Positions 1 through 20,892 of a DNA stretch of 50,345 bases are shown here, piece after piece. Source of the stretch: Candidatus Thioglobus autotrophicus (GTDB taxonomy: Bacteria; Pseudomonadota; Gammaproteobacteria; PS1; Pseudothioglobaceae); assembly GCA_022448455.1 (NCBI GenBank), contig JAKUUR010000012.1, positions 1-50,345 of the forward strand, in the 5' to 3' direction. The notes under the pieces were generated by a model that saw only the letters and a program-made list of their open reading frames with translations, did no database searches and was not told the DNA's origin. The translations under genes were made by a program, and so were the position numbers. Numbering within the stretch: position 1 is the stretch's first letter; each line of letters starts with the position of its first letter.

Positions 1-197
1 CGGTTTTTTCCAAATAAGTAAACGAGCTCAACTGAGCCAGAAACATTTCCTTTTTCATCAATTTGACCACTAAAAGTGTCATACAATTCATTTGAACCTG
101 TTTTTAGGTTGCTACTGTACCAGTGTTCTGTACCAATATAGAGTTTAAGAGTGCTTCGAAGGGTGCTAAACCTTGACGTATCAAGGCTTGCATAAAT
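1..197 (-). CDS. Partial unidentified reading frame behind tRNA-Glu, runs off the left edge
   Basis: An uninterrupted minus-strand frame runs from just after the CCA end of tRNA-Glu to the window edge, about 65 codons. It reads like real protein, with stretches such as LYIGTEHWYSSN and GQIDEKGNVSGSVELVYLFG. No ATG or GTG occurs in frame; the only possible start is a TTG about 40 codons in. The frame also continues unbroken back into the tRNA gene to a TAG in its D-loop region. It is either a gene whose 5' end was removed when something joined at the tRNA 3' end, or one that starts at a rare codon. The family is not recognised. Confidence 0.4.
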   Translation of the reverse strand, partial: MYASLDTSRFSTLRSTLKLYIGTEHWYSSNLKTGSNELYDTFSGQIDEKGNVSGSVELVYLFGKN

Positions 198-198
198 T

Positions 199-273
199 TG
201 GCATCGCGTAGGGGAATCGAACCCCTCTTGCCAGGATGAAAACCTGGAGTCCTAACCGATAGACGAACGCGAC
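199..273 (-). tRNA. tRNA-Glu (anticodon UUC)
   Basis: The minus strand folds as a full cloverleaf. A 7-bp acceptor stem (first pair G-U) closes it, the anticodon loop is TTTTCAT (anticodon TTC), the T-arm is AGGGG/CCCCT with loop TTCGATT, and discriminator G is followed by an encoded CCA. It lies 18 bases downstream of tRNA-Ala on the same strand, so the two are probably co-transcribed. Confidence 0.96.
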
Positions 274-291
274 AAAAAAATATTTTTTGCT

Positions 292-367
292 TGGTGGAGC
301 TAGGCGGGATCGAACCGCCGACCTCAACACTGCCAGTGTTGCGCTCTCCCAGCTGAGCTATAGCCCC
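292..367 (-). tRNA. tRNA-Ala (anticodon GGC)
   Basis: The minus strand gives a complete cloverleaf starting GGGGCTA, with anticodon stem CAACA/TGTTG, loop CTGGCAG (anticodon GGC), T-stem GGCGG/CCGCC, discriminator A and encoded CCA. It is the first gene of a tRNA-Ala/tRNA-Glu pair transcribed away from the hydrolase gene at 451. Confidence 0.97.
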
Positions 368-450
368 AATAACTGGGTTATTTAGCAAAAACGTAAATTA
401 TAATCTGTATCTCATTTCAGTCAAGTCAAAATTGGTAAAATATTATCCTT

Positions 451-16529: not shown

Positions 16530-17567
16530 CTAGTCTTCAACCAATGGCTTAACTACTTCAGCAATATCTTTCTTGTTTAAGTAACCCACCGCTGCACCAC
16601 TGGAATCTTGAACCACCGCACAATCAGCATTGGAACGCAATATTTCGCACAAAACATTATCAATAGAGTCTTCTTCATTGACTACAATTTTTGCCGCACC
16701 GTTGTCTGGTTTTTCATCCTTCATCACTGACTTGGCATGGAGTACATGGGAACGATTTACCTTTTTCACAAAGTCTCTCACATAGTCATCCGCAGGAGTC
16801 ATAAGGATATCCTGAGAGGTTCCATGTTGCACCAATTCTCCGTCATTAAGAATAGCAATTCGATCACCAATCTTAAGTGCTTCATCTAAATCATGTGTAA
16901 TAAATATAATGGTTTTATGGAGTTCTCTTTGAAGCTCCAAAAGTAGATCCTGCATATCACTTCGAATAAGAGGGTCAAGCGCACTGAATGCCTCATCCAT
17001 CATTAAGATTTCTGTGTCACAGGTTAATGCCCTTGCCAATCCAACACGCTGCTGCATGCCACCTGATAACTGAGATGGATAGCGGTCTTCATAGCCAGTA
17101 AGACCTACACGATCGATCCATTTTTTTGCTCTCTGGGTAGCTTCATCACCCTTTACTCCTTGTAAATGAATTCCAAGGCATATGTTATCTGTCACCGTTT
17201 TATGGGGCAACAAAGCAAAGCTTTGAAAAACCATAGCCGTTTTTTGTTGCCTAAACAGTCTAAGCTTTTCCATTGACATCTGAATAACGTCCTCACCACC
17301 AATCATCACTGAACCAACAGTAGGTTCAATAAGTCGATTAATGTGGCGAATTAGTGTGGACTTTCCAGAACCTGAAAGACCCATAATAACTTCAATATTC
17401 TTGTTTGCAAGGTCAAGATTTATATTACTCAAACCCAACACATGTTGGTGCTCTTTAAGGAGGTCATCCTTATTCATACCGTTATCAACATACTTCAAAA
17501 CGGACTTCGCCTTGGGTCCAAAAATCTTCGTCAAGTTTGAAATTTTTATTTTTATATCTTGACTCAT
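16530..17567 (-). CDS. proV: Glycine betaine/proline ABC transporter ATP-binding protein ProV
   Basis: This is the ATPase of a QAT-family importer. Walker A is GLSGSGKST at residues 63-71. The ABC signature is QLSGGMQQRVGLARAL, and LMMDEAFSALDPL holds Walker B. The part after about residue 265 resembles the regulatory CBS region of ProV/OpuAA, ending with a CAVVQDSSGAAVGYLNKKDI segment; only about one CBS repeat is evident. The 345 residues are a little short of E. coli ProV (400). It overlaps proW by 4 bases and is last in proX-proW-proV. Confidence 0.94.
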   Translation of the reverse strand: MSQDIKIKISNLTKIFGPKAKSVLKYVDNGMNKDDLLKEHQHVLGLSNINLDLANKNIEVIMGLSGSGKSTLIRHINRLIEPTVGSVMIGGEDVIQMSMEKLRLFRQQKTAMVFQSFALLPHKTVTDNICLGIHLQGVKGDEATQRAKKWIDRVGLTGYEDRYPSQLSGGMQQRVGLARALTCDTEILMMDEAFSALDPLIRSDMQDLLLELQRELHKTIIFITHDLDEALKIGDRIAILNDGELVQHGTSQDILMTPADDYVRDFVKKVNRSHVLHAKSVMKDEKPDNGAAKIVVNEEDSIDNVLCEILRSNADCAVVQDSSGAAVGYLNKKDIAEVVKPLVED

Positions 17568-19729
17568 AATACATCTCCAGAACGATGTTTCTGAATTCGA
17601 GTTCCGAATGCCTGCGAAACCCTGTCAAATATAATTGCTAGGGCCACAATCGCAAGACCGTATAGCATTCCAAGTGAAAGGTATTGGTTTTGAACAGCCT
17701 GAAGTACCGGCAAACCTAAACCCGTCACACCAATCATTGAGGCAATCACAACCATCGATAAAGCCATCATAATTGTTTGATTTACACCTGCGAAAATATT
17801 TGGAAGTGCAAGCGGTATTTGAACCATAAATAAACGCTGCCTATAGGTCGCACCGAATGCATCTGCTGCCTCCATAGCTTCCTTATCAACCAAACGTAAA
17901 CCCAAATTTGTCAAGCGCACAATAGGCGGCATAGCATAGATACAAACCGCAATCAAACCAGGAACCTTACCTATACCTAGCAACATAACGACAGGTATTA
18001 GATAGACAAAAGAAGGAATCGTCTGCATGATGTCAAGTACCGGTGTAATCATTAACTGAGCTCTGTCAGACCGTGACATCCATATTCCAATGGGTATCCC
18101 AACCGTTAGACATATCAGAGTAGCAGTCGCTATCATAGTTACTGTAGAGATCATAGGAGTCCACATGTCAAGGAATCCAATAGCAAAGAAACCTAGTATT
18201 ACTCCCACTGTCACCTTCAAGCTTCTGGAACCAAGCCAGGCTAGTGCACCTGCACCTAATAAAAAAACAGGCCAAGGTGTGGCAAGCAATAGCTGTTCAA
18301 ATCGAGCTAAAAAGAATAATAGTGGGTCAAATATTTTTTCAATAATATCTCCAAACTCTCTCGTAAAGTCCCTAAAGGCTGAGTCCACACACATACGTGA
18401 ATTCATCATCACATCACGAGGTATTGATATAGCGTTATTGACAAACAAAGAAAAGTCAGACACGTTAATTGCGTCACTTACCTGAGTCGATAAAGTCGCA
18501 AAATAATCTCCTTGAGTAACGGGGTCAACTGATTGAGCAGACTCAAATTGAGTTTCAATATTTTGAGACAATTTACTGATAGTTGCTGACAAAGCTTCTG
18601 GGTCAGTAGAACGAACGGACATATATGTTCTATCAAGCCTTTGCACTACCTTATCAAGATTAGCGATTACACCAACCTTTATTTCTGCATAATTACCAGC
18701 CTCATACTGAGCCGCTATGTCGATTACTTTTGCACCTAGCTCATTTGTTTTATTAACTAGTGGCATTAATACGTTTTCAACTATACTGACATCACCCCTT
18801 ATAGAGGCTTCTTTGACCGCTCTAGAGAGAGCCTCAGGATCGTTTACTAAAGGCATTAAGTTTGATACAATCTCGTTACTATCAACCATGTCTTGTACTT
18901 TTGCATGGGTTGTGATACTCAACTCATCCAAACTGAAAATCATATCTTTAGAACCAGAAAAACTCTTGTACGTCGAAGCTAAAGAATTTATCTTATCCCT
19001 TATTTGAGAAATTTGCTCAATGTGAGACTGAATTTCGATATTCGAATTGAGATAGTCGACCTGACCTATAAGTCCTCGAATTTTCTCGTGTAACGAGCCT
19101 ATCTGTAAACCTATATCACTCATAAACGATGTGCTATAGGTGTCTGCCTTATCAGCGTATTGTTGTGCCAACAATTCAACTTTATTAACAAGTTCGCTGG
19201 CATTATCGTTACTAACTAGATAGCGTGAGTTTTCCTCTATATCTTTTAGAAGAGGCTCTATATCCTTAAATATTGAAGTAAATTGATTAGGTGAATTTAT
19301 CGAATCAACCCTATTTGAGAGTTCTGCAACAGAATTGTTATAAGCCTCATATTGAGTGGTTGCGTTAGAGTTAAACTGAGCTCCAAGCTCCTGAGTTTTA
19401 TTTTCTAGGACTTGAGATAATAATTGAACTTTTTCAAGCAGTTCTGCAGCACTATTTACCTCAGTTAAAGGATTTGATTCATTTGATAACTCCTTTAAAG
19501 TTTTGGCTTTGACACTAGCTCGATCCGCGAGTTTAGTATAGTTATCAGTGATTTTGACTAGCTGAGTATAATCTGTCGCACTTAGAGCTTGTGACGTCAA
19601 GTCATCTGCTCTTTTAGTCATTGCTTGAATGAAGTTTAGGTCCTTATTGACAATTCTTAAGTCACCAATTTCAGCTGCCGTTGGAAGGCAATCCAATATG
19701 CTTTGTTTAGGTATCGGTCTAACTGCCAC
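17564..19729 (-). CDS. proW: ProW-type permease with a large helical N-terminal extension
   Basis: The last 270 or so residues (about 455-721) are a normal ProW permease. They have several membrane segments, DIMQTIPSFVYLIPVVMLLG, and the ATPase-contact EAA loop EAADAFGATYRQRLFMVQIP (620-639). Residues 1 to about 450 are not normal: E. coli ProW has about 100 residues before the membrane part. The extension is polar, rich in Ala, Asp, Glu, Leu, Asn and Ser, and looks helical or coiled-coil. Similar units recur at 93-115, 177-199 and loosely at 53-75, and DPEALS occurs at 297 and 376. No signal peptide is seen. The frame is continuous with no internal start that would separate the parts. Confidence 0.9.
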   Translation of the reverse strand: MAVRPIPKQSILDCLPTAAEIGDLRIVNKDLNFIQAMTKRADDLTSQALSATDYTQLVKITDNYTKLADRASVKAKTLKELSNESNPLTEVNSAAELLEKVQLLSQVLENKTQELGAQFNSNATTQYEAYNNSVAELSNRVDSINSPNQFTSIFKDIEPLLKDIEENSRYLVSNDNASELVNKVELLAQQYADKADTYSTSFMSDIGLQIGSLHEKIRGLIGQVDYLNSNIEIQSHIEQISQIRDKINSLASTYKSFSGSKDMIFSLDELSITTHAKVQDMVDSNEIVSNLMPLVNDPEALSRAVKEASIRGDVSIVENVLMPLVNKTNELGAKVIDIAAQYEAGNYAEIKVGVIANLDKVVQRLDRTYMSVRSTDPEALSATISKLSQNIETQFESAQSVDPVTQGDYFATLSTQVSDAINVSDFSLFVNNAISIPRDVMMNSRMCVDSAFRDFTREFGDIIEKIFDPLLFFLARFEQLLLATPWPVFLLGAGALAWLGSRSLKVTVGVILGFFAIGFLDMWTPMISTVTMIATATLICLTVGIPIGIWMSRSDRAQLMITPVLDIMQTIPSFVYLIPVVMLLGIGKVPGLIAVCIYAMPPIVRLTNLGLRLVDKEAMEAADAFGATYRQRLFMVQIPLALPNIFAGVNQTIMMALSMVVIASMIGVTGLGLPVLQAVQNQYLSLGMLYGLAIVALAIIFDRVSQAFGTRIQKHRSGDVL

Positions 19730-19740
19730 TTGTCACTCCA

Positions 19741-19816: not shown

Positions 19817-20824
19817 TTATAGTGAAGCCTCAACTGTGGCAGCTACATCAGCGTCAACCCATGCCTTCCATACATCTGTATGATTCGAAAGAAAATGAGT
19901 AGCAGCATCAGCTCCAGTGCCACCAGTCTCACCCATCCAAACAAGCATAGAGTTCATGATAGTACCAGGCCATGTACGTGCTGCAAAGTAGTCCATACCC
20001 TCTGATGGTCCGTTATAGAAAAAATTGTCACTCAACAAAGTGTTGACACGTGACTCAGTCCATCCAGACACCTGAGGATCAGCACAACCATCATAACCAA
20101 ACGCAATACAACCATCCCAGTTATCAGCACCGGCAAACGCTCCCATGTCAAGCTTCCTGAGGTCATATTTACCAACCAATGAAGTCGGGCTCCAGTAGTA
20201 ACCAAACCAGTTTTCACCTTGCTCAGAGGCCTTGGCAATGGAACCATCAAGACCAGCTGCAGTACCAGGATCACCTAGTACCCATCCTTTGTCAGCCATT
20301 CCATGGGCTCTGAAAAGACTTTGGCTTGCTAACTGACAACCCCAACCAGCAGGACAACCCATAAAGAAACCCTTAGAGGGGTCTTCTTTGTAAGGGAATA
20401 AATCAGGTCGAGCTATAACATCTTCGACTGTAACTAGTTCTGGGTTTGCGTCTTGAGTATAAGGTGTAATCCACCAACCCTCACCTAGACCGCTCATTGG
20501 CGCTGAATTACCAATATGTATTCTACCTGCTCCAACTGCACTATCAACTAGTGTAGCCATCGCATTAGCCCATATTTCTGGAGCCACGTCCGGCTCCCCT
20601 TTCGCATCCATTGAAGCCCATGTAGTCATTGTAGCACCAACTACAAGCTCAACTTCGCAGCCCATTGCCGTCAAAACAGCTTTATCGACATGAGCCATCA
20701 AAGATGCCGAAGGCCAGTTCATGTCTGCAATGGTGATTTTGCCACAAGCAGCATTTGAGGTTGTGCTTAACAAAAATGCAGCAGCAACAGCTCCAAACAC
20801 TTTCGTGGAAAATTTAATATTCAT
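19817..20824 (-). CDS. proX: Glycine betaine/proline-type ABC substrate-binding protein ProX
   Basis: This periplasmic binding protein feeds the ProVW importer. From the ATG at 20824 it has a signal peptide (MNIKFSTKVFGAVAAAF..., cleavage near SNA-A) and is 335 residues long. The mature part has ITIADMNWPSASLMAH at its start, then GLGEGWWITPYTQ and DNWDGCIAFGYDGC, rich in aromatic residues that could form a cation-binding box for quaternary amines. AGGAGA lies 7-8 bases upstream of this start, which rules against the ATG 19 codons earlier. The exact ligand (betaine, choline, DMSP, proline) is not fixed by sequence. Confidence 0.93.
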   Translation of the reverse strand: MNIKFSTKVFGAVAAAFLLSTTSNAACGKITIADMNWPSASLMAHVDKAVLTAMGCEVELVVGATMTTWASMDAKGEPDVAPEIWANAMATLVDSAVGAGRIHIGNSAPMSGLGEGWWITPYTQDANPELVTVEDVIARPDLFPYKEDPSKGFFMGCPAGWGCQLASQSLFRAHGMADKGWVLGDPGTAAGLDGSIAKASEQGENWFGYYWSPTSLVGKYDLRKLDMGAFAGADNWDGCIAFGYDGCADPQVSGWTESRVNTLLSDNFFYNGPSEGMDYFAARTWPGTIMNSMLVWMGETGGTGADAATHFLSNHTDVWKAWVDADVAATVEASL

Positions 20825-20864
20825 ATTTCTGTCTCCTAAAGTTTTTTTTATATATAAGAATTCA

Positions 20865-20879
20865 GAATGAGAATCATTC
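20865..20879. promoter_or_regulatory. Fur-box-like operator at the proX promoter
   Basis: GAATGAGAATCATTC is an inverted repeat with 6-base arms around GAA. Its core AATGAGAATCATT (20866-20878) differs by one base from the Fur-box core and from the site upstream of livJ. It lies 13 bases downstream of the proX -10 box, over the expected transcription start, and 40 bases before the proX ATG. That is where a repressor would sit. Confidence 0.6.
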
Positions 20880-20892
20880 AATCTGAACCCTG

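Follow-up and report, generated by a model that had tools for sequence, protein, structure and literature searches.

An N-terminal extension of about 425 residues, predicted to form a helical repeat domain, on a DmpW-like ABC permease of Thioglobus/SUP05 bacteria

The stretch of Candidatus Thioglobus autotrophicus DNA analysed here (contig JAKUUR010000012.1 of assembly GCA_022448455.1, 50,345 nt; hereafter the window) encodes, on its minus strand, a ProW-like ABC permease whose membrane core is preceded by several hundred extra residues. The locus raises the question of what these residues are, on which side of the membrane they lie and what they might do for the transporter. The genes and segments concerned are:

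16530..17567, minus strand: ATPase subunit gene, ProV/DmpV-like (TIGR01186 above cut-off; 4 nt overlap with the permease gene)
17564..19729, minus strand: permease gene with the extension (open reading frame, GTG start, 721 aa)
17564..18289, minus strand: permease core, residues 481-721 plus stop (BPD_transp_1; OpuA fold)
18290..18430, minus strand: pre-TM1 segment, residues 434-480, common to short relatives
18455..19729, minus strand: N-terminal extension, residues 1-425, predicted all-helical (non-homologous to short relatives; helical model; profile)
19733..19735, minus strand: in-frame TGA, one codon 5' of the GTG start
19736..19739, minus strand: GGAG, putative ribosome-binding site (read from the sequence)
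19817..20824, minus strand: DmpX-like substrate-binding protein gene (OpuAC; match to 7yle; likely ATG start, MNIKF, by homology)

The start codon of the permease gene is firm: the GTG is preceded by an in-frame TGA at a distance of one codon and by a GGAG at 6 nt. The upstream stop rules out a missed signal peptide or an earlier start. In the whole protein, Pfam BPD_transp_1 matches only residues 544-712 (E = 7.4e-26; 91.4 bits against a cut-off of 26.4), and the NCBIfam models for ProW and for choline permeases match from residues 406 and 455, respectively. Short relatives outside the family mostly align from around residues 429-448 (three from 398-408). Thus, the extension comprises ∼425 residues; residues 434-480, the pre-TM1 segment, are part of the original permease, which spans approximately residues 434-721. 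The first-pass annotation had described some 450 extra residues before a normal permease of about 270; the extra residues are real, and the alignment starts put the two sizes nearer 425 and 288. Upstream of residue 440, the hydropathy of 19-residue windows reaches 0.79 at most, so the extension has no signal peptide or membrane segment. With no hydrophobic segment found and the start fixed, a cleavable signal peptide before the long tail is absent, as had been noted from the first reading of the sequence.

The genes lie in the order binding protein, permease, ATPase. The BPD_transp_1 match, the fold of the core and the adjoining binding-protein and ATPase genes mark the protein as the permease of a ProW/OpuA-type importer. 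Its membrane core superimposes on OpuA with Z = 21.4 (rmsd 4.4, 245 aligned), and its scores fall below the cut-offs of the equivalogs for ProW (NF008196; 258.7 against 439 bits) and for the choline permease (TIGR03416; 253.1 against 363 bits). The best solved relative of the binding protein is 7yle (RnDmpX with DMSP; E = 7.4e-44), and seven of the eight DMSP-pocket residues named for RnDmpX in excerpts of PMC10030565 are identical, with glycine in place of A153. By these comparisons, the transporter looks like one of the DmpXWV (DMSP) kind, and its substrate is likely to be DMSP. Excerpts of the same paper list Ca. Thioglobus among the DmpX holders and report its dmpX as abundant at polar sites. 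The mechanical open reading frame of the binding protein extends to 20881, and its TTG start is probably 19 codons too early (window 20825-20881); relatives of this protein begin with MNIKF or MKIKF and a Sec-type signal. The same genome (G000) encodes other ProW-like permeases on G000:C67, G000:C45 and G000:C12, with frames of 807 residues (two successive permease matches), 512 residues and 337 residues.

Searches of Pfam, NCBIfam and PHROGs returned coiled-coil-like or scattered matches to the extension, differing between members and below the curated cut-offs for the window's protein, and a known domain was rejected on these grounds. The weak matches among 19 members included Apolipoprotein (best 7.5e-5, in 7/19), DpdI (best 4e-6, in 7), Rad50 (best 2.4e-6, in 6) and KIF21A_4th (4e-5, in 1), and phrog_3550 matched the window at 6.1e-5. 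The earlier statement that the extension holds no recognised domain is therefore borne out in these three libraries. Among PDB sequences, the best match to the extension profile was the chain sc-apCC-6-DPH-NR (9.5e-4). With the extension alone as query, Foldseek against the PDB gave b-iTHR-110 and a programmable building block as its two matches at E ≤ 0.001, both with TM-scores <0.2. The matches that followed (E ≥ 0.012), subunits of tripartite pore-forming toxins among them, were to helical bundles and were taken as chance likeness between long helices, and no match at 0.001 was found in BFVD. No structural relative was convincing. The best coherent match placed model residues 21-283 on three spectrin repeats, at Z = 11.4 and 11.0 and rmsd values of 21.1 and 24.8; the Z of 11.4 lies under the tool's bar of ∼13 for helical proteins, and the structures tied with spectrin in Z were short matches to designed repeats. 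The spectrin family was absent from the Pfam matches, taken to an E of 10 for the window and to 0.01 for the 19 members. The extension is not described in the titles found in the open-licence literature, and it is undescribed in the libraries searched.

The AlphaFold model of residues 1-426, made with 19 rows, is all helical (mean pLDDT 88.4, pTM 0.72), the full-length model being weaker (pLDDT 74.6, pTM 0.45). A long, once-broken helix at 94-142 and a long helix at 177-226 are each followed by a shorter one (147-171 and 230-254) with small breaks, and shorter helices continue to residue 421. The two repeat units are:

19202..19450, minus strand: repeat unit 2, residues 94-176 (HHalign to unit 3)
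18953..19201, minus strand: repeat unit 3, residues 177-259 (HHalign to unit 2)

Alignment of the segments 90-180 and 173-262 covered 86 columns with an HHalign probability of 97.3 and a score of 60.9; shuffling the columns 40 times gave no score above 18.8. The 83 residues at 94-176 are duplicated at 177-259, and the recurrence near residues 93-115 and 177-199 seen in the first reading is part of this duplication. The description of the extension as long, helical and repetitive agrees with both the model and this repeat. A cruder, ungapped self-comparison gave the 83-residue offset partial support: its score of 7.76 exceeds the 95% level in every kind of block shuffle, yet the best individual shuffles reached 8.28 with 14-residue blocks and 7.92 with 28-residue blocks. 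The remaining unit pairs of the extension gave no convincing alignment (best probability 17.6 over 17 columns). The motif DPEALS is indeed present at residues 297 and 376, but the surrounding units fail to align (7 columns only); both copies stand at predicted helix starts (H298, H377), so that helix capping explains them. The hydrophobicity of the extension (18455-19729) has a period of ∼3.3 residues that is coherent over the full length (power 101.5 at 3.30 against ≤37 elsewhere; the peak in windows is 616.8, and none of 500 shuffles exceeded 330.5), while its single helices mostly peak at 3.35-3.75, with three outside this range (3.05, 4.00 and 4.15). Several matches of the same structure search that gave spectrin align helices distant in sequence (121..399, 33..425 and 28..421) at 2.1-3.5 Å, from which we infer that the second half of the extension folds back along the first.

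In the family sample of 83 genomes (the search of the order drew the same number), the extension was found in 24: it occurs in 22 of the 29 genomes that represent Thioglobus/SUP05, the window's genus, and in the two that represent a sister genus. The named extended relatives are Ca. Thioglobus sp. and SUP05 cluster bacteria, and the rest are gammaproteobacterial MAGs. Several of the seven genus genomes that lack the extension are incomplete; one (G026) has only a permease piece at a contig edge (residues 562-721), and the other six have no close permease (best matches ≤49% identity, or none). A genome of the same family but another genus (G034) has a short permease (298-residue frame, 66% identity). 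Searches with the extension profile matched only the window's own genome, both among 369 genomes of the class and among 398 of the phylum, two samples that overlap. A contig scan of named genomes, in which 80 of at least 592 candidate loci were kept, gave eight extended and 72 short permeases. The short frames span 283-327 residues, one being truncated by the end of its contig, and include loci of SAR11, SAR116, Rhodobacteraceae and others. The notion, raised in the first-pass annotation, that the extension might always accompany such permeases in marine bacteria does not hold: in these samples its only carriers belong to Thioglobus/SUP05 and a sister genus.

In a core tree of 47 rows, a single branch separates the 15 extended rows from all others (96/100, a bootstrap that is unsettled), and the simplest reading of this tree is that the extension was gained once. 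Searches of plasmids, phages and viral contigs, and of the rest of the genome, revealed no source for it. Tail identity to the window drops to 42% while core identity is 85% (L022), and the tail dN/dS of 0.07-0.40 in 9/9 pairs, above that of the core (0-0.20) in each pair, shows that the tail is under purifying selection. Some pairs have an uneven dS between the two parts (0.118 and 0.552 for the window and L002), which may reflect recombination. The tail length is nearly fixed, with 0-2 indel columns relative to the window in 18/19 rows and 14 in the most distant row (31% identity). The extension is a real, selected domain. In one extended locus (L020, G009) the permease frame breaks near the C-terminus, with a second piece in another frame, and in another (L021, G011) 22 core residues are missing; either change may be genuine or an assembly error.

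Two cysteines are conserved ahead of the membrane part:

19688..19690, minus strand: C14 codon (Cys in 24/24 copies)
18389..18391, minus strand: C447 codon (Cys in 24/24 copies)

In all 24 extended copies, these are exactly the two cysteines that precede TM1 (window numbering). The short relatives have G, A, S, T, L or F at the position of C447 and no cysteine in that segment (0/68), and by this comparison the pair came with the tail. The presence of two cysteines in 24/24 copies and in 0/68 short relatives makes a periplasmic C14-C447 disulfide likely; relatives of DsbB and DsbA are encoded. The natural reading is a disulfide that joins the first residues of the chain to the TM1 side, and such a bond would fit a folded-back rod. 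It is also possible that a bond forms between the two permeases of a dimer, or that no bond exists.

Conservation, in segments picked after inspection of the data, is high at residues 1-53 (0.81-0.93), 84-93 (0.85) and 295-311 (0.81), and lowest in several intervening helices (0.60-0.68). The conserved middle segment is:

18749..18847, minus strand: residues 295-327, conserved middle segment and possible tip (conservation 0.75-0.81)

A rod whose base and tip are conserved suggests a module that keeps a site at some distance from the membrane. In the mechanism that we propose, an all-helical repeat domain would have joined the N-terminus of a DmpW-like ABC permease once, in the ancestor of Thioglobus/SUP05 and the sister genus. 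The domain would be periplasmic, within an uncleaved N-tail of ∼480 residues that crosses the membrane without a signal peptide. The chain would lead outward through spectrin-like three-helix units (the 83-residue repeats), turn in the conserved middle segment and return, and the C14-C447 disulfide would seal the base of the rod beside TM1. The rod would keep its conserved tip above the membrane and most likely dock or retain the soluble binding protein near the channel. Taken as a whole, this reading of a helical domain gained once, forming a periplasmic, signal-less, disulfide-closed rod with a conserved, docking tip, is tentative and falls a little short of an even chance. Of its elements, the sequence, the repeat, the distribution, the constrained length, the cysteine pattern and the purifying selection are observed, the helical fold is predicted, and the periplasmic side, the fold-back and the disulfide are inferred. 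A lineage-specific module on this importer may alter DMSP capture at low concentration.

That the tail docks DmpX in particular is a guess, possible but doubtful. Counted against a docking role is the fact that the short relatives work with soluble binding proteins and have no tail. Replacement of binding-protein lipidation by the tail was considered and rejected, as soluble binding proteins accompany both kinds of permease without a pattern; a lipobox pattern was flagged in 14/98 binding proteins, most of which look false (by the start at the mature cysteine), only that of L023 being a clear lipoprotein by eye. L023 (L023:3-1136) belongs to the short-permease system of G034; its binding protein begins with a lipobox-like sequence, whereas those of the other systems look soluble. 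The main rival to docking keeps the same periplasmic rod and makes it an envelope anchor or spacer that has no contact with DmpX and joins the transporter to peptidoglycan, to a protein of the outer membrane or to some other complex. The nearly fixed length, the repeat-built helical rod and the conserved ends all suit a spacer; nevertheless, Pfam and NCBIfam gave no recognised peptidoglycan-binding or lipid-attachment domain, and a folded-back chain makes a shorter rod than an extended one, and we regard this role as unlikely.

The placement of the tail in the periplasm, which both of these roles share, depends on homology of the core. The N-tail of E. coli ProW, of 100 residues, is reportedly periplasmic and translocated independently of Sec, as stated in the title of one study; judged from the range of the alignment, ProW residue 100 lies near residue 470-480 of the window's permease. 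The binding domain of OpuA is extracytoplasmic according to excerpts of PMC8199443. Because the core is colinear with ProW and has the OpuA fold, and the tail or binding domain of these is extracytoplasmic, the tail of the window's permease is probably periplasmic by homology. The predicted cytoplasmic loops carry 2, 2, 5 and 4 K+R and the outer loops 0, 1 and 0, with loop limits set by us. The shared pre-TM1 segment has a mean of 4.1 K+R in proteins with the tail (n = 21, range 4-6) and 7.3 in those without it (n = 68, range 5-9), and the net charge of the tail is −22.

Against this stands the textbook limit of ∼50-100 residues for tails that cross without a signal peptide. Excerpts of the reviews PMC7616256 and PMC13261788 likewise give tails of typically less than about 50 residues for proteins with an N-exo first TM, longer tails needing a signal peptide. 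A cytoplasmic tail would respect these limits: TM1 would not span the membrane, TM2-TM7 would keep their orientation and the tail would regulate or scaffold the transporter from inside, where N-terminal domains of any length are possible (PMC7616256, in excerpt). The hydrophobicity of TM1, which is slightly lower with the tail than without it (1.71 versus 1.95), also favours this arrangement. However, TM1 is better conserved to the short relatives than TM2 (0.61 versus 0.44), the cysteine pair speaks for the periplasm, and positive charge has been lost before TM1. We consider a cytoplasmic tail possible but unlikely.

This conflict is the most striking aspect of the protein: homology of the core would place the tail outside, in a length beyond that accepted for tails that lack a signal peptide. 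Either the rule for long exoplasmic N-tails, as given in excerpts of PMC7616256 and PMC13261788, or the topology of the permease must give. Our estimate is evenly poised on whether a conserved bacterial membrane protein, the permease of a DMSP importer, translocates an uncleaved, signal-less N-tail of ∼480 residues that forms a periplasmic helical repeat rod with a disulfide-locked base. If so, its translocation would lie far beyond current insertion models for such tails, and the protein would serve as a natural test case for the translocation of long tails.

Two further explanations survive less well. Of the roles proposed in the first reading (sensor, tether or spacer), the first would have the tail sense ions or osmolarity and gate transport, by analogy with osmoregulated transporters and in keeping with the polar and charged character of a helical domain that belongs to an importer of the osmolyte type, but no relative with such a role was found in Pfam, NCBIfam or Foldseek against the PDB and the short relatives manage without the extension, making a sensor improbable. 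An artefact, whether an assembly fusion of extension and permease or an internal start at M441/M442 that leaves a short real permease, is hardly credible even with both methionines invariant in 21 extended rows, as extension and permease share one frame in all 24 genomes that carry the extension, two of them single-contig assemblies (G006, G028), which rules out the fusion that was held in the first reading to be fatal to the domain, and as no conserved ribosome-binding site precedes M441, against mostly GGAG-like ones before the upstream starts, an internal start being rejected on this ground. The adjacent methionines 441-442 (window 18404-18409) are invariant in the extended proteins, and other residues stand there in the short relatives.

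How does the protein compare with known systems? The model of the extension aligns with spectrin repeats (3edv, 1u4q) over ∼260 residues and resembles them in the long helices that run from one bundle to the next. Their unit of ∼106 residues is, however, longer than the 83 residues seen here, the rmsd is 21-25 and a Pfam spectrin match is absent. DmpXWV, the DMSP ABC importer of Ruegeria, SAR11 and others, has in common with the window's system an RnDmpX-like binding protein, its pocket and the gene order; the permease here has ∼425 extra residues, whereas the main text of PMC10030565, in its excerpts, mentions DmpW once and there without such a domain. OpuA of Lactococcus lactis (7ahc, 7ahd, 7ahh) shares the core fold, but has a fused binding domain (PMC8199443, in excerpt) where the window's permease has an N-terminal helical domain with no binding-protein match. 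ProW of E. coli is colinear in both the core and the pre-TM1 segment (residues 406-711 with 37-331), whilst the tail here is about four times longer.
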